IMG/VR virus record: IMGVR_UViG_3300030389_003924
Coordinates: 1 to 36,441 of that record
Strand: one strand, 5' to 3'
DNA: 36,441 nucleotides
Source: a virus
Part shown: positions 7,486-22,400 of the stretch, in pieces
Layout: every line of letters begins with the position of its first letter
How positions within the stretch are numbered: the first letter of the stretch is position 1
Program-made: the position numbers and the translations under genes
Notes under the pieces: generated by a model
The model's database searches: none
What the model saw: only the letters and a program-made list of their open reading frames with translations
Told to the model about the DNA's origin: nothing

Positions 7486-9573
7486 TTAGACAGGTGTCCT
7501 TGGCGTATTCATCGAGTCCTGGATCGTTTTTTCATCGATCTCGGTCTTGAATTTTTCTTCAAGTTCTCTCGCTTTCAGTTTGATCTCGGCCTCCATCTCG
7601 TCCCGTTTCCGGTCGTCTTCCATGAGCAGGGTCTGACGTTTCAGATCAAGCTCGGCCTGTTTCATAGCGATCTCCGCCTGGATCTGTTCGGTCTGGGCCT
7701 GTCGGAAAACCTCCTCCGGTGTCGGTTTTGGTTCCGGGGGTGGAGGTGGCTGGAAATTTTTCGGGTCATTGAAGAACTGGCTCGAGTCCTGATACCCTGC
7801 GATCTCGGCCGACTTGACCAGGGCGTTATAAAGTTTGGTCATATCGGTCAGAGGGTTGTTCGGTCCCATCTGCTGGATATAACCTTCCTGCTTGGCGATG
7901 ATCGCCGAGAGGTAGGCCATCCGCTCGGCGTCGTTAGACGAGCTAAGCGGGGCCGTGACTTTGACGTCCATGTCCGAGGTCCAGGACCGGGGGTCTATCG
8001 GGACCCACTGGTTTCTGAGACGGACCACACGGGCCTTCTCCTGGTGTTTCCTTAGTAGGTCGAAGATCCCTTTAAATACCCTCTTCAGGCCTCTCTCGCT
8101 GAACGTGCGGGTGATCATCTCGATCCGGGCCATGGATGCCCTGGACATGAGGTCGATGCCCGTGGCGGTCGTTGACTGGATGCTGGAGGCGTCTAGCCCC
8201 TGGCTGGCCTGGGTGATTCCTGTCCGCCTCTCTTCCTCGGTTCTGAGAAAGTCCCATATCGGGAGGACGGAATTTCCAACGAACGGTACTTGCATGGGGG
8301 TCACGGCCCCGGGCTGGCGTTGTCGGATAATACTCCCGACTTCCGAGTTGAGGACGTCGTCCATTTCCGGGATTGCGGATTCTGTCACTAACAAACGAGG
8401 ATGGATTGACATAGCAAGCGAATCCAACGTATTCCGGAGGATGACGGTTCTTATTCTTTGGAGGTCTTGGACTAGGTCTCCAATCCCGAGCCCCTCTATG
8501 GAGTGGGGTTCCGGATCCGGGACGAAGGTCGCAAAAGGGATGTGATCGCAGGGTTCATCGTGGACGACGTTGTATCCATTCCCTGCACAACAAATTCTTA
8601 ATAATTCGCTATGGCCGTCGCCATTTCGGTCGATTCTGGCATAGCCCTCGATATACTGGACCAGGCGTGAGCCGGGTTCGATGTTGTTGTTTCTTCTACC
8701 GGTCGAATTAGGAAAACGGGAAAGGTATTCGTCGTTGGTGGCGAACTTATCGTCGGTCCCGGAATAGCCTTCCATCAGTTCCCGGTCATAGCCCATGGCG
8801 ACCAGTTCATTCACGGTCTTGTAGGAACGGTGTCCGATGAAATCGGATTCCTCGACGGACTTGGCGTCTCGGGAATAGATGAATTCTTCCGGGGGGACGG
8901 CCTCTACTCGGATTTTTGCTTTAGAGGTAACCCGTCGGATCGATACGTCATGGAGGTTTGGCGGAGGCTGAACCGTACCGTCAGGTAGGGGTAGACCCTC
9001 CTCGGGGGCGTCGGGGTCCGCATAAGCACGGACACTAATCGCCTCGACGTCGTCCTCGCCGAGGAGGACTTGTACTTGTTGTTCACTGAGCCCGGTAAAG
9101 GCCTCGACCTTGATGTCCGGCGTGTCGTCATAGAAGAATTTGACGACCCCCATCCTCTTGATCAGGGCGTCCTTGAAGACGTCACTTAGGACCCGGTAAC
9201 CGTCGCATTCTTCCTTGAAGATAAAATTGACGATGTCGGTGGCCTGTTCGGCGAGTTCGATATCCTGGGGATCCGTGGGCTGGAATTCCAACAACTTCTC
9301 GGATCCAAGGAAAGTCCGCATGAGGGCGGGCATGACCTGGCCTACCGCCGTCTGAATAGTTCGGTCTCGTACTTGGGAACGGCCGTCGGCTTCGTCCCCA
9401 TAAAACCGGCCATGATAGCGATCTGCAAGATCGGATCTTACCGCCGATATTTCGTTGTCCTGGTAGTCTACCGCCTCAGTAATTAGAGACCCGACGTAAC
9501 TCTCAAATTCAACGTCGTCCATCCCCTCAAACGGGAGATCCTCTTCGAGATCCAGGGTCGTGTCTGTTTGCAT
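7486..9573 (-). CDS. Portal protein
   Basis: 695 aa, typical for a P22-type podovirus portal. The N-terminus (FESYVGSLITEAVDYQDNEISAVRSDLADRYHGRFYGDE...GRSQVRDRTIQTAVGQVMPALMRTFLGSEKLLEF) is the classic portal stem and wing start. The middle contains DALIKRMGVVKFFYD and IGDLVQDLQRIRTVILRNTLDSLAM. The C-terminus is a long charged coiled coil (EEVFRQAQTEQIQAEIAMKQAELDLKRQTL...). It forms the dodecameric ring through which DNA is packaged and ejected. Its partner TerL is separated from it by the plus-strand island at 9.7-11.1 kb. Confidence 0.9.
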   Translation of the reverse strand: MQTDTTLDLEEDLPFEGMDDVEFESYVGSLITEAVDYQDNEISAVRSDLADRYHGRFYGDEADGRSQVRDRTIQTAVGQVMPALMRTFLGSEKLLEFQPTDPQDIELAEQATDIVNFIFKEECDGYRVLSDVFKDALIKRMGVVKFFYDDTPDIKVEAFTGLSEQQVQVLLGEDDVEAISVRAYADPDAPEEGLPLPDGTVQPPPNLHDVSIRRVTSKAKIRVEAVPPEEFIYSRDAKSVEESDFIGHRSYKTVNELVAMGYDRELMEGYSGTDDKFATNDEYLSRFPNSTGRRNNNIEPGSRLVQYIEGYARIDRNGDGHSELLRICCAGNGYNVVHDEPCDHIPFATFVPDPEPHSIEGLGIGDLVQDLQRIRTVILRNTLDSLAMSIHPRLLVTESAIPEMDDVLNSEVGSIIRQRQPGAVTPMQVPFVGNSVLPIWDFLRTEEERRTGITQASQGLDASSIQSTTATGIDLMSRASMARIEMITRTFSERGLKRVFKGIFDLLRKHQEKARVVRLRNQWVPIDPRSWTSDMDVKVTAPLSSSNDAERMAYLSAIIAKQEGYIQQMGPNNPLTDMTKLYNALVKSAEIAGYQDSSQFFNDPKNFQPPPPPEPKPTPEEVFRQAQTEQIQAEIAMKQAELDLKRQTLLMEDDRKRDEMEAEIKLKARELEEKFKTEIDEKTIQDSMNTPRTPV

Positions 9574-9647
9574 ACCCTAAAATTTCGATGAAAATCAAAA
9601 AAAATTCACAAAAAAATGGACAATTAGCAATTTTTTGACATCAAGTG

Positions 9648-9676
9648 TTGACAATTTAGAACAAATGTTCTAATTT
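9648..9676 (+). promoter_or_regulatory. Strong plus-strand promoter with palindromic operator in the spacer
   Basis: TTGACA (9648-9653), 17 nt, TAATTT (9671-9676). The spacer and the first bases of the -10 contain a perfect dyad TAGAACA-AA-TGTTCTA (9657-9672). The core GAAC-N4-GTTC has the layout of the Gram-positive SOS box, but it could equally be the site of a phage regulator. The promoter drives the divergent small-gene island starting at 9720. A second TTGACA lies at 9635-9640. Confidence 0.65.
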
Positions 9677-9697
9677 ATTAACACTTCAGTAACACAC

Positions 9698-9712
9698 AAC
9701 CTTAATCGGAAA
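9698..9712 (+). promoter_or_regulatory. Leader motif AACCTTAATCGGAAA, copy 1
   Basis: One mismatch to the AACCTCAATCGGAAA consensus. It ends 7 nt before the ATG at 9720; an additional AAGG follows it. Confidence 0.6.
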
Positions 9713-9719
9713 GGTAACA

Positions 9720-9989
9720 ATGTTTAAACATCAATGCTTAAAATGCGAAGGGACTGGCCGGGTCGAGTGGGGTATGCACGTTCTCGCTGGCGTCTGTTTT
9801 AACTGTAAGGGTGAAGGCCATGTATTACTCAGAAATAAACGAGTTGAGAAGAAACCCAAGACTCGTTTCAAGTTGTTTATGACCCAGGAAGGTCAGCCCG
9901 TGCATTGCTCTTGGGCCGATACCAAAAAGTCAGCAGAGAAATGGCTATCTATGCCAGGAGAACGCTGGTTCGAGGAAGTCCCACGGTAA
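9720..9989 (+). CDS. Small zinc-ribbon protein, DnaJ-like CxxCxGxG motifs
   Basis: 89 aa. Two CxxCxGxG motifs, CLKCEGTG (Cys6, Cys9) and CFNCKGEG (Cys26, Cys29), form one zinc-binding unit of the DnaJ central-domain type. The C-terminal half (MTQEGQPVHCSWADTKKSAEKWLSMPGERWFEEVP) is separate and unrecognised. There is no J-domain, so it is not a DnaJ co-chaperone by itself. First gene of the plus-strand island, behind a strong promoter and the shared leader motif. It may act on RNA, protein folding or a host target; function unknown. Confidence 0.75.
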   Translation: MFKHQCLKCEGTGRVEWGMHVLAGVCFNCKGEGHVLLRNKRVEKKPKTRFKLFMTQEGQPVHCSWADTKKSAEKWLSMPGERWFEEVPR

Positions 9990-10057
9990 GCCGAAACACC
10001 CCTCCGGGGCGTCGTCCAGGACTAATCGCCTGGGCCTGATGATGGCAGATTCCATTC

Positions 10058-10072
10058 AACCTCAATCGGAAA
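10058..10072 (+). promoter_or_regulatory. Leader motif AACCTCAATCGGAAA, copy 2
   Basis: Exact consensus, ending 5 nt before the ATG at 10078. It decides this start over the in-frame ATG at 10039, which lies upstream of the motif. Confidence 0.65.
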
Positions 10073-10077
10073 TTGAT

Positions 10078-10242
10078 ATGAAAACAGAAACAGACAATAA
10101 CTGGGAATACTGGTTAATCCAACTGGGAGAACGCTATTTCCAGTGGGCCCTCTCTGAGGGGTACACCCATGAAGACGCCTGGAGGTATGCGTCTAAGAAA
10201 GTCAAACAGACCCGTGACAAGTATGAAAAGGAGGTCGCATGA
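10078..10242 (+). CDS. Small protein of unknown function
   Basis: 54 aa from ATG 10078, chosen because the shared leader motif lies just upstream; an in-frame ATG at 10039 would place the motif inside the gene. The protein is MKTETDNNWEYWLIQLGERY... with aromatic and acidic residues in the first half and basic ones in the second (KKVKQTRDKYEKEVA). It looks like a single helical domain with no recognised family. It overlaps the next gene by 4 nt. Confidence 0.65.
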   Translation: MKTETDNNWEYWLIQLGERYFQWALSEGYTHEDAWRYASKKVKQTRDKYEKEVA

Positions 10243-10481
10243 AAGACCCTCGAGAATACATCGTCCTCGCCGGTTCGCCGGTGACGGTCCACTACACGGA
10301 CGAACGTCCCCCCAACGAGACGACCCTCGACTTCCATTACAGATTTGAACGGAAACAGATCCAGCCCGTTCACCTGATAGGTGATGACATCGACTTCGCC
10401 ATAACCGTGCCATCTAAAACCGTGGATTACTATATATTCAGGAAGGAAGACATCCTTCTCATAGAGACGGAGGAAGTATGA
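10239..10481 (+). CDS. Small protein of unknown function
   Basis: 80 aa. The start is supported by AGGAGGT upstream and by a 4-nt ATGA overlap with the preceding gene. The composition suggests a mostly beta fold (EYIVLAGSPVTVHYTDERP..., VDYYIFRKEDILLIETEEV). No family recognised. It is coupled to the HTH regulator that follows (4-nt overlap). Confidence 0.65.
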   Translation: MKDPREYIVLAGSPVTVHYTDERPPNETTLDFHYRFERKQIQPVHLIGDDIDFAITVPSKTVDYYIFRKEDILLIETEEV

Positions 10482-10918
10482 CCCCGGAAGAACTGAAACT
10501 CACCCGGAAGGCCCTGGGCTATTCTCAGAGACGGTTTGCGGAGAGACTCGGGATCTGTTACCAGACGGTCGTGAACTGGGAAAAGGCCAAGACCAAGATC
10601 CCTAAGTTCGCCCCGATGGCCCTTTTGGCTATGGCCTTCGAGGACCGTTTCATCCTCCGCAATGCAATCCACCGGTTCCAGACCGAGGCCCACAACCTCC
10701 TGGTCCGGGCCCATGCGGAGTTCATCGACGGCGAGTATGAGATCGCTGGCCGTCTCATCGGCCAGGCCCTGATCGCCCACGCCCGGAACCCTCTGGACGA
10801 CGTCCAGGCGTCCCTCCGGGAACGTGTCGAGTTGGAAATGGATTTTGCTAAAAAGAACACTGGCTGGCTCGAAGGCCGAGCAGTCAGGACCTCAGATCAA
10901 CCTCAATCGGAAAATTAA
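10478..10918 (+). CDS. HTH (XRE-type) transcriptional regulator-like protein
   Basis: 146 aa. Residues ~1-50 (MTPEELKLTRKALGYSQRRFAERLGICYQTVVNWEKAKTKIP) form a clear XRE/Cro-CI helix-turn-helix, with recognition helix around YQTVVNWE. The C-terminal ~90 residues are helical and charged and lack the Ser-Lys protease domain of RecA-responsive repressors. A GGAGG site precedes the start. As the only regulator in this island, it is a candidate for control of the palindromic promoter at 9648-9676, though that is inference. Confidence 0.75.
   Translation: MTPEELKLTRKALGYSQRRFAERLGICYQTVVNWEKAKTKIPKFAPMALLAMAFEDRFILRNAIHRFQTEAHNLLVRAHAEFIDGEYEIAGRLIGQALIAHARNPLDDVQASLRERVELEMDFAKKNTGWLEGRAVRTSDQPQSEN
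10899..10913 (+). promoter_or_regulatory. Leader motif AACCTCAATCGGAAA, copy 3
   Basis: Exact consensus, ending 6 nt before the ATG at 10920 and lying within the 3' end of the HTH gene. Confidence 0.65.
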
Positions 10919-10919
10919 G

Positions 10920-11120
10920 ATGAAAATTTGGCAAGTGCAGTCTGACTGCAAAGCAGGATATGACGCTGGCAGAGGTGGTTTTTATGCTAGATCAAAAAAA
11001 GAAATCATGAAGGCAATCAAAGAAAATGAATGGGATATGGAAGGTTGCTATATCTCAGTCATTGATGTCGAACCCAACAAAGACGGAATTATCACGGCAC
11101 TGAATAATTCTCAGTGGTAA
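10920..11120 (+). CDS. Small protein of unknown function
   Basis: 66 aa from ATG 10920 (MKIWQVQSDCKAGYDAGRGGFYARSKKEIMKAIKENEW...). The start is fixed by the shared leader motif a few nt upstream. It reads as a small alpha/beta protein with a helical segment in the middle and beta strands after it. Base composition is more AT-rich than in the HTH gene. Last gene of the island; it ends 2 nt before the TerL stop codon on the other strand, so the two transcripts collide. Confidence 0.65.
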   Translation: MKIWQVQSDCKAGYDAGRGGFYARSKKEIMKAIKENEWDMEGCYISVIDVEPNKDGIITALNNSQW

Positions 11121-11122
11121 AT

Positions 11123-12535
11123 CTAAACAACTACCCCGCTTAAACCTCGAATCAACGGGCCCCGGTATCGGGCCCGTCCCCGTCCCCCTGCCAGAACGGC
11201 ATCACTCGCAAAAGTCAGACACAAAGCGTCGGCTATATCCGGCGAGGATATACCTCTCCTTTTCATCTCCTCCTTTGATTCAATCTTCCTTTTATTCGAC
11301 GAAGTATAAACATATCTCGGGCTGGTCAACTCGGTGACCAGTCTCTCATCAGACGGCAACCTCACGTCCCGGGCCCCAAGCCAGTCCCTCAACCGGAACC
11401 ACAACTCCGCCCTCAGATTCACAAAATCCGTCCCCATGGACGGAGACTCGCCCACATTGATCCCTCGGATCGGCACGTCCAGGTCCAACTCTAAAAGTCT
11501 ATCCAACGTCCCGGATCCGATCCCGATGGAATCGATCAGGACCTCGTCAATATCCTCGGATTCGTATTCCTCGAGGTACTCCTGGACCCGCCCAACCAGG
11601 CTCATGGTGTCGAGCCCCTGGAAGGTCCGGATATCATCCAGGACCACATTCCCTTTCCGGGCGACAATGGCCGAATAATCGCCTCCATACCTCGCCACAT
11701 CGACCCCGATGACGACGGGGGAGTCCCATCCCTCGACGTCCCTGGTGACGGCCGACTCGACCAATTCGAGGGGGATCACGCCGTCCTCATCCGCAAGAGG
11801 CCACTCTCCGAGGACCCTGACCCGAAACTGATTGGAATTTTCGGAATATCTCGACTTCATATCGTCGATGAAGTCCTCCGAGGTCCGGTCGGAGTCATAA
11901 CAGGAAATCTTAAGGGTCTTCCAGCGATTCGATAAACGGTTGTGGGTGTCATAGAAAAAGCCAGTGGATCGGACCGGGTTTCCGGCCAGGATCGTGATCG
12001 CCGTACCATGGGTCCCGCCGGACATGGACCCGGCCGAGGCCTCGAATATTTTTTCAGAAATACCGCTGGCCTCGTCATAGACGTTAAGCATATTATCGGA
12101 GTGCAATCCTGCGATACTTTCCACCGAGTCGTCTTTTGATACCCTGAACGTGATAAAACTCTCCTCCGGGGCCTCCTTGAGCCTGATCATCTCCGAGGTG
12201 ATGTCCACTAGGTCGTCCAGGGGTTCAGGGAGGGCCTTGAACCACTTCTTACACTCAGAGGCCAGGGCATCATTCAATTGGGGCTTTGTAGGGGCCGTTG
12301 CGAGGGTTTTTTGAGGAAACTTGAGTAGTGTGTGCCAGACCATGATGATCGCCAGGAGGCACGATTTTCCGACCCCGTGCCCAGACCGGAGGCTGATCCT
12401 GCGTTCGCCATCCCGGATCCACTCCAAAACTTGCTTTTGGTGATTTTGTAGTTTTATTTTCAGCATCTCTTCCGCAAACAGGACCGGGTCAGGCCTATAT
12501 CGGCGGACGAAGTCCCGCCAGACGTCGTTATTCAT
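11123..12535 (-). CDS. terL: Terminase large subunit
   Basis: 470 aa, normal length. ATPase part: Walker A SGHGVGKS (51-58), Walker B NMLNVYDEA (Asp154, Glu155) and a coupling segment with TILAGNP. Nuclease part: GVDVARYGGD (Asp279, Asp286), VLIDSIGIG (Asp335) and SPDIADAL (Asp433/Asp436). It pumps DNA into the prohead and cuts concatemers, docking on the portal. It follows the sigma-4-like gene on the minus strand and is separated from the portal gene by the opposing small-gene island. Confidence 0.95.
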   Translation of the reverse strand: MNNDVWRDFVRRYRPDPVLFAEEMLKIKLQNHQKQVLEWIRDGERRISLRSGHGVGKSCLLAIIMVWHTLLKFPQKTLATAPTKPQLNDALASECKKWFKALPEPLDDLVDITSEMIRLKEAPEESFITFRVSKDDSVESIAGLHSDNMLNVYDEASGISEKIFEASAGSMSGGTHGTAITILAGNPVRSTGFFYDTHNRLSNRWKTLKISCYDSDRTSEDFIDDMKSRYSENSNQFRVRVLGEWPLADEDGVIPLELVESAVTRDVEGWDSPVVIGVDVARYGGDYSAIVARKGNVVLDDIRTFQGLDTMSLVGRVQEYLEEYESEDIDEVLIDSIGIGSGTLDRLLELDLDVPIRGINVGESPSMGTDFVNLRAELWFRLRDWLGARDVRLPSDERLVTELTSPRYVYTSSNKRKIESKEEMKRRGISSPDIADALCLTFASDAVLAGGRGRARYRGPLIRGLSGVVV

Positions 12536-12601
12536 GGATTTTCTTTCTTTTTGGGGTTTTCTTGGAAAGGTCCCGGGGAATTGATGGAAGATTTTTTTCC
12601 T

Positions 12602-12841
12602 TCAAAGAGCCTCGATGATCTTACGGACCTGGTTCCGGTTGTAGTAAACGTCTGACATCGGGATCCCGAGCTTCTCCAGGGCCTGAGATTCAATAATCTT
12701 GACCCGATTATGAGAAACCCCGACCTCCAGGCCGACCGTCTCCAGGGTCTCTTTGGCGGTCGTCTGACTCTTTTTCGGCCGGTCTATCGCAAATCGAAGG
12801 CGGAGGATCTGTTTTTCACGGTCGGAAAGATTATTTTCCAA
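12602..12841 (-). CDS. Sigma-70 region 4-like DNA-binding protein
   Basis: 79 aa. The start appears to be TTG at 12841 with AAGGGG upstream, overlapping the end of the previous gene. Residues ~4-62 (LSDREKQILRLRFAIDRP...TLETVGLEVGVSHNRVKIIESQALEKLGI) match region 4 of sigma-70 factors, including the REKQILRLRF start and the helix-turn-helix with the R-V-K-I-I-E-S-Q-A-L-E-K-L ending. No region 2 is present, so it cannot be a complete sigma factor. It could be a late activator that touches RNA polymerase or the -35 region. Position just before TerL suggests late-gene control. Confidence 0.7.
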   Translation of the reverse strand: MENNLSDREKQILRLRFAIDRPKKSQTTAKETLETVGLEVGVSHNRVKIIESQALEKLGIPMSDVYYNRNQVRKIIEAL

Positions 12842-13196
12842 AGATCCCCTTTTTCTTCAAAGATCCCAAAGATTCCCCCTTTTCCAGGTTGGGGCCTTTG
12901 GTGTTCTTTGGTTTATTTTTCCACCAGGGAAAGGGTTTCTTCTTCATTCCGGCGATCCGCATGATCTCCTTTTCCGGTAACCGGCCCGGTTCCTCCGGAA
13001 AACCCTCAAAAGTAGTGTAAATATTCACTTCCTTCCCTCGGACGACCAGGACCCCGTAGTGTTCAGGCATACTGTCCCTGAACCACTCAGCCCAGGCCTC
13101 TGCTATCTCTTCAGAAGGGGCCTTGATGAGCCCGGAACCGGTCTTCCTGATCTCTTTCCCGAGGCCGTCTAAAAGTTTACTCGGAGGCTTTTTCAA
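12831..13196 (-). CDS. Hypothetical protein with basic tail
   Basis: 121 aa. Residues 1-80 form an alpha/beta domain (EIAEAWAEWFRDSMPEHYGVLVVRGKEVNIYTTFEGFP). The C-terminus is a Lys/Pro/Trp-rich tail (MKKKPFPWWKNKPKNTKGP...), suggesting nucleic acid binding. It overlaps both neighbours. No recognised family. Function unknown. Confidence 0.6.
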   Translation of the reverse strand: MKKPPSKLLDGLGKEIRKTGSGLIKAPSEEIAEAWAEWFRDSMPEHYGVLVVRGKEVNIYTTFEGFPEEPGRLPEKEIMRIAGMKKKPFPWWKNKPKNTKGPNLEKGESLGSLKKKGIFGK

Positions 13197-18990: not shown

Positions 18991-18997
18991 AATTCAA

Positions 18998-19011
18998 TTC
19001 CGATTGAGGTT
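18998..19011 (-). promoter_or_regulatory. Leader motif AACCTCAATCGGAA, copy 5
   Basis: Minus-strand copy, ending 7 nt before the ATG at 18990. It overlaps the last codons of the exonuclease gene. Confidence 0.6.
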
Positions 19012-19837: not shown

Positions 19838-19852
19838 TTTCCGATTGAGGTT
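19838..19852 (-). promoter_or_regulatory. Leader motif AACCTCAATCGGAAA, copy 6
   Basis: Exact consensus on the minus strand, 12 nt before the ATG at 19825, with an A-rich spacer. The longest spacer of the six copies. Confidence 0.65.
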
Positions 19853-20435: not shown

Positions 20436-20464
20436 ACGATAAGGTTGACAATTTTTATTGTCAA
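20436..20464 (-). promoter_or_regulatory. Early minus-strand promoter overlapping operator
   Basis: Read on the minus strand: TTGACA (20464-20459), 17 nt, TATCGT (20441-20436). Transcription would start near 20430, about 25 nt before the Cro-like ATG. The -35 lies inside the operator palindrome, so repressor binding would block it. Confidence 0.5.
20445..20464. promoter_or_regulatory. Palindromic operator TTGACAAT-N4-ATTGTCAA
   Basis: Perfect 8-bp arms around TTTT. Further half-sites TTGTCAA occur at 20412-20418 and 20485-20491, and ATGTCAA at 20475-20481, so about five half-sites span 80 bp between the Cro-like and repressor genes. Likely target of the phage CI- and Cro-like proteins. Confidence 0.65.
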
Positions 20465-20770: not shown

Positions 20771-21163
20771 ATGGAACGAAAGAAGGAAGATCCCGACATC
20801 TCTGCAAGACTCCAAGAGGAATGCAGGGAGAGAGGTTGGACTCAAAAAATACTTGGCGAAAAGCTGGGGATATCCAGGACTTTTGCAAGCCAGGTGTGGA
20901 ATGGGTCTGTCCCTATCGGGCCCAAAAACCTCCGCAGACTAGCGGATTTAGGATTTGACCTGAACTGGCTAATCGCTGGTCAGTCGAGAATGAAGTCTGG
21001 GATAACTCAGGCGGAAATCGATAGGGTCATGGGGGAGTTTGATCAACTCCGATATTACACAAAGAACCTTGAAAGGCTAATAAAGGAAATAGGTAGAAAT
21101 GAAAACGACGAAGGAAGTAGAGGCCCTAAAGATTCTGGAATTAATCCGGGAGAAAATAGATGA
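20771..21163 (+). CDS. CI-like lysogeny repressor
   Basis: 130 aa. Residues ~10-70 (ISARLQEECRERGWTQKILGEKLGISRTFASQVWNGSVPIGPKNLRRLADLGFDLNWLIAG) form a phage CI-type helix-turn-helix ending in the DLNWL-x-G signature. The remainder is helical (AEIDRVMGEFDQLRYYTKNLERLIKEIG). It lacks the Ser/Lys peptidase domain, so RecA-driven self-cleavage is not expected. No ribosome site precedes the ATG and an in-frame stop lies upstream, so the start appears fixed and the message may be leaderless or poorly translated. The stop overlaps the integrase start by 4 nt. Confidence 0.8.
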   Translation: MERKKEDPDISARLQEECRERGWTQKILGEKLGISRTFASQVWNGSVPIGPKNLRRLADLGFDLNWLIAGQSRMKSGITQAEIDRVMGEFDQLRYYTKNLERLIKEIGRNENDEGSRGPKDSGINPGENR

Positions 21164-22269
21164 ACTCGAGGAAGCCCTTGTCGGTCAGGGACGGCCACTG
21201 GGTGTATCGAGATTATACAACCAAGCCGGCGAGGCTAGTCCGCCTTTGTCGGACAGAAGAGGCCAAATGGAAGATGACCTCGAATGGGAGGCGGAAAAGG
21301 ACGGAACAGGAAAGATCGTTTTTTCTTTTAAAACTAAAGGAAGAAAAGATTCAAGAAGCTCAGGCTCGGTCAAAGGCAAGAGTCGAAAGTCTGTTCAAGG
21401 ACTGGCTTGATTTAGCCAGGTCCACTCGGTCGCCCAGGACGGCCGAATCCTATGAATCGACGGCACGATATTATTTGGACGCCGTCGGGGATCATCCTGG
21501 GGATTCATATGATGGGCGGAAACAAAAGATTTTTGTAGACGCCCTAAGATTCCGGGGACTGGCGGATCATTCGATCCAGGCCCATCTGAGACAACTCAAA
21601 GCCTGTTTCCGTCACGGGGAACGGGTCGGGTTGATTGATAGGGCCCCCCTGGTCGAGCCTCTGAGGGTCGCTGATCGTGAGATCACCGCATTTTCTCAGG
21701 ACGACCTGGACCGGATCGGACGCCACCTGGAAAACCGGCTGAAGACGGGGCCACCGTTTCGGCGGAGGTTCTATCTTAACCATATCCGGGCCCACGTCAT
21801 GCTGACCTGGACCGGGATGAGGGCCGGAGAACTATGTCACCTATTATTGAGGGATATTCATTTGGAAGACCGACTAATAACGATAGTCCCGGACGGCTCG
21901 GATTGGGCCCCGAAATCCCGCCGGGTGGATCGAGTCCCTATGTCAGTGGTCCTCCAGAGGTTTCTGATAACTGATATCAACGAACGTCCGGACCGGGACG
22001 TGTATTATCTTGACGCTGGTACTGGTTCCCCGGCGTATCCCAAGAGAGACCAACTCACCCAGGCGTGGAAACGAATCCTCGGGCGAATAGGGATTGAGGG
22101 TGTCAAGCCGATACACGGATATCGTGCTAGTCTGGCAACCAGGCTGATTCGGGCGGGTGTGGGTATCGTGGAGGTACAGAAAATACTTCGACATCAACAG
22201 ATCCAGACGACTCGACAATATGTCGATTCAATCCACTTGGATTTACATAAGGCGGTTGATGTTTTGTAA
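21160..22269 (+). CDS. int: Tyrosine integrase
   Basis: 369 aa. The N-terminal ~75 residues are a basic arm-binding-type region (RRKRTEQERSFFLLKLKEEKIQEAQARSKARVE), followed by the SAM-like core-binding domain (LFKDWLDLARSTRSPRTAESYESTARYYLDAV). Catalytic residues are visible: Arg221 in TGMRAGEL, Lys252, His319-x-x-Arg322 in IHGYRAS, His345 in LRHQQIQTTRQYVD and the nucleophile Tyr354. It is co-expressed with the repressor and lies directly before attP, which it recombines with the host tRNA-Lys gene. Confidence 0.95.
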   Translation: MNSRKPLSVRDGHWVYRDYTTKPARLVRLCRTEEAKWKMTSNGRRKRTEQERSFFLLKLKEEKIQEAQARSKARVESLFKDWLDLARSTRSPRTAESYESTARYYLDAVGDHPGDSYDGRKQKIFVDALRFRGLADHSIQAHLRQLKACFRHGERVGLIDRAPLVEPLRVADREITAFSQDDLDRIGRHLENRLKTGPPFRRRFYLNHIRAHVMLTWTGMRAGELCHLLLRDIHLEDRLITIVPDGSDWAPKSRRVDRVPMSVVLQRFLITDINERPDRDVYYLDAGTGSPAYPKRDQLTQAWKRILGRIGIEGVKPIHGYRASLATRLIRAGVGIVEVQKILRHQQIQTTRQYVDSIHLDLHKAVDVL

Positions 22270-22340: not shown

Positions 22341-22400
22341 TGGTAGAGCATCTGACTTTTAATCAGGTGGTCCTGGGTTCGAGTCCCAGCCGACCCACCA
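22341..22400 (+). other. attP core: 3' part of a tRNA-Lys(UUU) gene
   Basis: 60 nt from the D-arm to CCA. The D-arm end GGTAGAGCA, anticodon stem-loop TCTGA-CTTTTAA-TCAGG (anticodon UUU), a 5-nt variable loop, T-stem CTGGG/CCCAG with a TTCGAGT loop, acceptor CCGACCC, discriminator A and CCA are all visible. The 5' acceptor strand and the first half of the D-arm are missing, so this is not a working tRNA. On integration it would restore the host tRNA gene. Confidence 0.9.

Follow-up and report, generated by a model that had tools for sequence, protein, structure and literature searches.

What five small genes are doing between the portal gene and the gene for the terminase large subunit (TerL), against the direction of both, is the question raised by a locus in the IMG/VR virus record IMGVR_UViG_3300030389_003924, the whole stretch of which (36,441 bases; hereafter the window) was analyzed. 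The five genes form an island on the + strand (9720-11120), and the two flanking genes are on the - strand. The evidence points, on balance, to an operon of exchangeable accessory genes of a temperate phage, which would be repressed by the product of its fourth gene, have its transcript cut by a hammerhead ribozyme, and carry cargo acting early against the host or its defenses.

The island and its hammerhead

A type II hammerhead ribozyme, which the sequence-only reading of this locus had overlooked, is recognized on the + strand between genes 1 and 2 (9989-10054; Rfam RF02276, 46.7 bits, the cut-off being 37). Taken with its 3' tail (9989-10063) it scores 92.4 bits with a covariance model of our own, which as a control finds no match at E 0.1 in 76 other viral loci (667 kb). 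The motif begins on the final base of the stop codon of gene 1, and its core has the elements of type II, viz., CUGAUGA, GAAA, and a GUC before the cleavage site, with stems I and III closed and stem II open; cleavage is predicted after C10013 (C10013/G10014), 24 bases past the stop codon of gene 1. In an alignment of seven hammerhead copies, standard pairs fill 98.3% of the pair cells and 10 of the 17 pairs are altered on both sides, with stem II itself invariant. None of 500 shuffles reaches the observed covariation, and sliding the pair partners abolishes the signal. A pseudoknot of 4-5 bp between loop I and the tail is possible in all 10 copies (that of L084 repeating that of L083), and the window has AATC (loop I) and GATT (tail) where its relatives have GATC and GATC, i.e., a compensated change. 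Given that stems I and III diverge strongly between some copies yet still pair, and that the pseudoknot is compensated, this RNA structure appears to be under selection, and the comparative evidence makes us nearly certain that a selected hammerhead is present.

All or part of the island is found in eight contigs (the window, L083, L084, L012, L082, L003, L085, and L115), of which L083 and L084 are near-duplicates and are both counted. Rfam hammerheads occur in L004/L084 and L083 (two each), in L012 and L085, and in L115 (two; as L202), and our own model recovers all of these together with a copy in L082 that the end of the contig truncates. At least one hammerhead precedes gene 3 in seven of the seven contigs that cover that part, L082 being counted by its cut-off copy. 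Most copies have an extra U after the CUGAYGA box; an extra base after the CUGANGA box occurs naturally in active viroid-type hammerheads.

With respect to the setting, all five open reading frames (ORFs) are present where an opposite-strand island of small genes had been claimed. Profile matches identify the flanking genes as an SU10-type portal (7486-9573) and TerL (11123-12535), with the TerL stop codon two bases beyond the end of gene 5. The sequence-only reading had held that TerL and portal are usually adjacent, and a survey of 80 TerL loci, 75 of which also hold a portal gene, agrees with this: among the 73 distant loci (TerL below 60% identity and a portal on the locus) the gap between the two is under 300 bases in 66, 300-600 bases in 4, and at least 600 bases in 3. 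The long ORFs in the gaps of these last three share the direction of TerL (as listed for L006 and L007, the gap of L008 being that of L007). The short gap in distant relatives thus marks the island as an insertion peculiar to the close kin of this phage. Accordingly, of the suggestion that it is a lysogenic moron or an anti-host/defense cassette, what stands is the comparatively supported view of an accessory, moron-like island in the packaging module, with its own promoter and helix-turn-helix (HTH) regulator, and variable among near relatives. No intrinsic terminator was found on the + strand in 9400-12900. Just upstream of TerL, on the - strand, 12602-12841 codes for a 79-residue protein with a sigma70 region 4 domain, possibly a late-transcription factor.

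The cargo genes differ among the islands of the relatives. Gene 1 (89 residues; 9720-9989) had been described as coding for a zinc-ribbon protein; it has two CxxC pairs and is zinc-ribbon-like, its Pfam matches to the DnaJ and anti-TRAP zinc ribbons being sub-threshold, and it matches PHROG 4095 (E 8.5e-7). Gene 2 (54 residues; 10078-10242) has a homologue in L115, and gene 3 (80 residues; 10239-10481) is represented in every contig covering its place (7/7: the window, L083, L084, L012, L082, L085, and L115); its predicted structure reached a mean predicted local distance difference test (pLDDT) score of 50.7 and was not used. Gene 4 (146 residues; 10478-10918) is the HTH gene, considered further below, and gene 5 (66 residues; 10920-11120) has no significant match to other islands. 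From its sequence, the gene 5 product is possibly a shortened version of the N-terminal part of the protein encoded at L083:4548-5102. That protein and those of L012:824-1417, L082:1587-2141, and L003:4681-5259 have variable N-terminal parts and a near-constant C-terminal tail that contains a CxxC pair (SPCIQYDNFPAEKTGKCLHCQKTVGYVGGMPRVNPPASIRD), an organization that suggests domain exchange within genes.

The leader and the borders of gene exchange

The tail of the hammerhead merges into a short constant sequence, AACCTCAATCGGA, which is joined to both the ribozyme and the next start codon and which we term the leader. The pattern AACCTCAATCGGAAA recurs three times in the island, as had been noted earlier: at 9698-9712 with one mismatch, at 10058-10072 as an exact copy fused to the hammerhead tail, and at 10899-10913 as an exact copy within the 3' end of gene 4. 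Allowing one mismatch, there are five copies in the window, where about 0.003 would be expected at equal base frequencies. The two outside the island lie on the - strand, one with a mismatch before a gene for a Sak-type annealing protein (18997-19011) and one exact, with a GC hairpin ahead of it, before an exonuclease VIII-like gene (19838-19852). The leaders stand a few bases ahead of start codons and have a GGA or GGAG core resembling a Shine-Dalgarno sequence. Across the island contigs 36 of 52 ORFs start behind a leader (leaving aside one doubtful ORF of L115, and a leader inside a gene at L003 989), which is an upper figure because the picking of ORFs favored leaders. Ten of these 36 leaders follow a hammerhead and ten a GC hairpin whose loop has four bases, and the other 16 comprise six that are promoter-proximal, six within the 3' end of gene 4, and four others. 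When searched for alone in viral contigs, the leader pattern gives mostly chance matches, among the matches listed.

That the leader also precedes the genes for the exonuclease VIII-like and Sak-type annealing proteins argues for early expression, and this bears on the alternative that survives best, viz., that the island serves lysogenic conversion. Here the prophage would express the genes to the benefit of the host, e.g., by superinfection exclusion, with gene 4 setting the level and with promoter, repressor, and ribozyme working just as in the favored model. A temperate lifestyle is probable for the phage: the window holds an integrase gene (21160-22269), a CI-like gene (20771-21163) and, just after the integrase gene, the 3' part of a tRNA-Lys (59 bases, 22342-22400, + strand; anticodon TTT by eye, CCA), which is likely the attP core, and the island shares its strand with this lysogeny module, opposite to the late genes. 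The repeated ATGCACGGACGAGGA on both sides of the tRNA-Lys part may represent integrase arm sites. However, the leader is common to the island and the exonuclease and annealing genes, which are lytic or early, and did not turn up ahead of the CI-like or integrase genes in the scan of the window, and the cargo proteins that were scanned match no PADLOC defense family; we therefore regard lysogenic conversion as a credible but unlikely alternative.

It is considerably less likely that the leader is a transcription element, i.e., a promoter or a site for the sigma-like protein of 12602-12841, instead of an element of translation start. The encoding of a sigma70 region 4 protein nearby and the recurrence of the leader at gene starts on both strands would suit such a role. 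Against it, the leaders lie near start codons, carry a Shine-Dalgarno-like core, and often overlap the tail of a ribozyme or the 3' end of a preceding gene, a placing that suits translation better.

The island contigs also reveal where genes have changed. A block of 96-100 bp comprising hammerhead and leader is shared at 93-96% identity between the window and L085, L012 and L085, and L012 and the window, and in nucleotide comparison the genes ahead of it do not align in any of these pairs; the match between the window and L115 begins at the same base and continues into genes 2 and 3. In the listed pairs the 5' edge of the block is at most four bases from the first base of the hammerhead, barring L083/L115 and L084/L115, in which one block begins within the ribozyme, and the truncated L082. 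The borders of exchange hence coincide with the ribozyme, and since a block of about 100 bp is common to islands with unrelated flanking genes, genes seem to have been exchanged around it. Such sharply bounded homology between unrelated genes might also mean that the hammerhead is mainly a recombination homology, or a passenger linker spread by gene shuffling, whose cleavage is without consequence. This is improbable, a shade more so than the transcriptional role of the leader, in that stems I and III diverge and still pair and the pseudoknot is compensated, whereas a recombination seed would need sequence identity alone.

The promoter dyad, gene 4, and a model of the island

The stretch from the portal start to gene 1 (9574-9719) is AT-rich (27% GC) and contains the promoter and 5' leader region, the layout of which is repeated in L012, L085, L083, and L115. 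On the + strand it has a -35-like hexamer, TTGACA (9648-9653), that is the same in L083, L085, L115, and L203 and is TTGCAA in L012, and, 17 bases on, a -10-like hexamer, TAATTT (9671-9676), for which the relatives have TAATTT or TAATAT. The promoter had been called near-consensus, but its -10 is weak when set against the E. coli consensus: TAATTT fits TAnnnT and agrees with TATAAT at just three of six positions, and a scan for consensus promoters lists none at this site. The palindrome claimed inside the promoter, GAACAAATGTTC, is indeed found there (9659-9670). It is part of an operator-like dyad, TAGAACA-AA-TGTTCTA (9657-9672), which lies between the -35 and -10 hexamers and covers the first two bases of the latter, and is thus placed like the inverted repeats of acr-aca operons. 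GAACN4GTTC occurs twice in the window where 0.79 would be expected, and 18 of 100 shuffles have as many, which is within chance; what makes it significant is where it lies and that it is conserved, not the count alone. In all seven promoter regions known (the window, L083, L084, L085, L203, L012, and L115) ACA-NN-TGT and its site between the two hexamers are kept. The GAAC arms are found in the window, L083, L084, L085, and L203 and are changed in the other two, to TGACAgaTGTCA in L012, which has homologues of genes 3 and 4, and to CTACaaaTGTCG in L115, which has homologues of genes 2 and 3 and whose gene 4 would lie beyond its contig.

The proposed ligand of this dyad is the product of gene 4, in which an HTH regulator had been seen before and which has a Cro/CI-type HTH domain (Pfam HTH_3, above the cut-off) and is a putative autorepressor. 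The gene is present in five of the five contigs that cover it whole (the window, L083, L084, L082, and L012), and L085 includes its first 23 residues. It stands downstream of the small genes with a further gene after it, the order expected of an acr-aca operon if the island is read as a single transcript. The best sequence match in the PDB is the 434 repressor, which aligns without gaps over residues 6-53 (E 0.0011), and in 434 repressor positions 27-29 and 33 read the operator. Residues 27-29 of gene 4 are CYQ in the window, AYQ in L082, L083, and L084, and HYN in L012, so that operator arms and recognition helix differ jointly in the sole comparison available (L012). From these sequence comparisons we consider it likely that the gene 4 protein binds the dyad. 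The structural model of the protein has a mean pLDDT of 67.8, with the HTH part better; Foldseek with this model found nothing at E<=0.001 in the PDB or BFVD, and a comparison of the HTH domain places SO3848, Aca2, Aca10, and Aca1 in its top rows (Z 7.0-8.4, mostly over about 55 residues). Aca2 has an RNA-binding role. No Aca family appears among the PDB sequence matches or NCBIfam matches of gene 4, and its matches among defense and anti-defense families, all weak (RmrA, MqsA-type proteins, and RstR), are judged to reflect similarity of the HTH domain.

That host LexA binds GAACAAATGTTC and the SOS response switches on the island as a DNA-damage-inducible lysogenic moron, as the sequence-only reading had supposed, is very improbable and was rejected: GAACN4GTTC does lie within the promoter and is similar to the box that LexA binds in Gram-positive bacteria, but its count is no higher than chance allows, its specificity bases are lost in two of the seven promoter regions while the promoter frame stays and the relatives have homologous genes, an outcome that the sequence-only reading had itself counted as refuting, a host regulator's box is not expected to change with a phage gene, and the island encodes an HTH candidate of its own, i.e., a phage-encoded repressor, which fits the variation of the dyad better.

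Control by the CI-like repressor was also considered. Before the CI-like gene, the window has a dyad, TTGACAAT-TTTT-ATTGTCAA (20445-20464), and further copies of TTGACA/TGTCAA, which are probable immunity operators distinct from the island dyad. TTGACAAT is common to this dyad and the -35 region of the island, with one copy in the island promoter, where the full TTGACAAT-TTTT-ATTGTCAA dyad was not seen by eye. A different feature marks the promoter regions of certain relatives, viz., a conserved stretch of about 230 bases from promoter to first gene (L083:1630-1870, L115:4340-4575, and L203:10-190 on the - strand) that is absent from the window, L012, and L085. It is likelier a structured RNA than a gene because L203 replaces AUCCG/CGGAU with AUCCC/GGGAU and has a frame-breaking indel; its folding z is -0.79, and it has no Rfam match in L083.

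We propose that the accessory operon under gene 4 control would work as follows. A strong promoter of the sigma70 and early type would drive the island against the late genes, and the gene 4 product, binding between -35 and -10, would later shut it, a wiring like that of acr-aca operons. The type II hammerhead would cut the transcript after gene 1, such that the upstream mRNA retains the stem III hairpin as its new 3' end and the downstream mRNA (genes 2-5) opens with the stem I hairpin, 64 bases before the start of gene 2, followed by the leader, which would supply the start signal. That the ribozyme insulates these mRNAs from one another is rather probable. Ribozyme and leader would together form a standard linker, and the first gene could therefore be swapped without disturbing the regulator unit. 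The cargo would most likely act early against the host or its defenses; by analogy, an anti-host role is a serious candidate, short of probable. More speculatively, and rather doubtfully, the hammerhead and leader may be the standardized linker of a gene-exchange platform, in which anti-host genes are swapped between constant units and cutting insulates the mRNA of the insert from that of the autorepressor, so that every insert would have an mRNA to itself, with its 3' end protected and its start signal fixed. If true, phage hammerheads would thereby acquire a defined role, and hammerhead-leader units could be used to find anti-defense genes.

Several points weigh against this model. As for the ribozyme, its folding energy is no better than that of shuffles (z -0.55), stem III contains an A.C mismatch both in the window copy and in that of L085, and in the window copy an extra U separates the CUGAUGA box from stem II. 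As for the regulator, the joint change of operator and helix comes from the three different gene 4 proteins for which a promoter is known (the window, L083 = L084, and L012), the Aca rows of the structure comparison give no function, the HTH fold being a common one, and the island continues past gene 4 with another gene. The cargo proteins scanned match no known anti-defense family, and a host search with the hammerhead-leader pattern and a 58-base tRNA-Lys stretch gave no matches in genome contigs.

Beyond the close kin, five distant gene 4 relatives (L211-L215) were covered, and L215 alone among them shows a hammerhead-like match (L215:3817-3885; 41.2 bits, below the Rfam cut-off for it); it lies between two genes, about 2.1 kb upstream of the gene 4-like HTH gene of that contig and on the strand of that gene. 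L215 is an unrelated GC-rich phage contig whose array has repeated TAGGCA...TGCCTA-like and TAGGCAATGTGxCTA sites (by eye). A search of 15 whole records with our model gave matches in the contigs of L115 and L215 and one weak match of 16 bits, with no hammerhead in the named phages MW202496, MW202879, and MF074189. Among TerL relatives, L016:4331-4411 (- strand) matches the hammerhead model weakly (16.1 bits), and a distant one has a group I intron (L008:9452-9675, 72.9 bits) that is unrelated to the island.

Comparison with known systems

Phage morons and accessory hotspots are extra genes with their own promoter, placed between genes that are adjacent in relatives. The island resembles them in being inserted between such genes, with a promoter of its own recognized from sequence and conservation only, and differs in being multi-gene and internally mosaic, with no intrinsic terminator found on its strand.

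Its ribozyme has the core, permutation, and loop I-tail pseudoknot of the type II hammerheads (RF02276) of Perreault et al., 2011 (PMC3088659), and as among those, several copies may surround single genes or blocks. According to the available text of that article, prophage hammerheads flank genes or short blocks of changing identity and are proposed to cut long phage transcripts into gene-length mRNAs, with ardA named as an example, and it provides the precedent of self-cleavage for other phage hammerheads. Unlike the hammerheads in that text, the ribozyme of the island is fused to a constant leader as an exchangeable linker of about 100 bp, sits in an operon-like array with a promoter dyad and an HTH protein, and in most copies has the extra U after the CUGAYGA box.

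The nearest analogue of the leader is the start-associated sequence (SAS) of Cluster K mycobacteriophages and its extended form, ESAS (PMC3203893), likewise short and constant with a Shine-Dalgarno core just ahead of start codons. As given in the available part of that source, the SAS has a 13-base consensus, GGGATAGGAGCCC, before many unrelated non-structural genes, about half of the SAS have an upstream inverted repeat, and RNA hairpins are doubted for the ESAS. The leader, AACCTCAATCGGA, departs from this consensus, and a hammerhead or a GC hairpin often lies upstream of it. In the promoter-guided anti-defense clusters of archaeal viruses the shared element is, in the accessible text, an archaeal promoter (PMC11065993), whereas here it is a translation-start leader with a ribozyme, in one array.

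As in acr-aca operons (PMC9410906, PMC8434428, from the text at hand), small unrelated genes are followed by an HTH protein and an inverted repeat lies in the core promoter, and the HTH domain is structurally nearest to the Aca2, Aca10, and Aca1 rows. Unlike in those operons, the cargo includes no known acr, a gene follows gene 4, and the closest PDB sequence is the 434 repressor and not an Aca; ribozyme and leader, both features of the island, go unmentioned in the available parts of the two articles.

That phage hammerheads flank small genes is already known, and a 2017 review (PMC6155905, in its accessible portion) has them flanking small non-conserved ORFs and treats the role of bacterial and phage hammerheads as open. 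In a literature search that left most subscription papers outside its reach, no source was found to describe a hammerhead that is joined to such a leader or tied to an HTH-controlled operon. The island makes the hypothesis of processing and insulation directly testable, and its small proteins are a set worth screening for anti-defense activity. To the known association it adds a ribozyme that is fused to a constant start-associated leader and marks sharp borders of gene exchange, in an array with its own HTH protein and an operator that seems to vary together with that protein.

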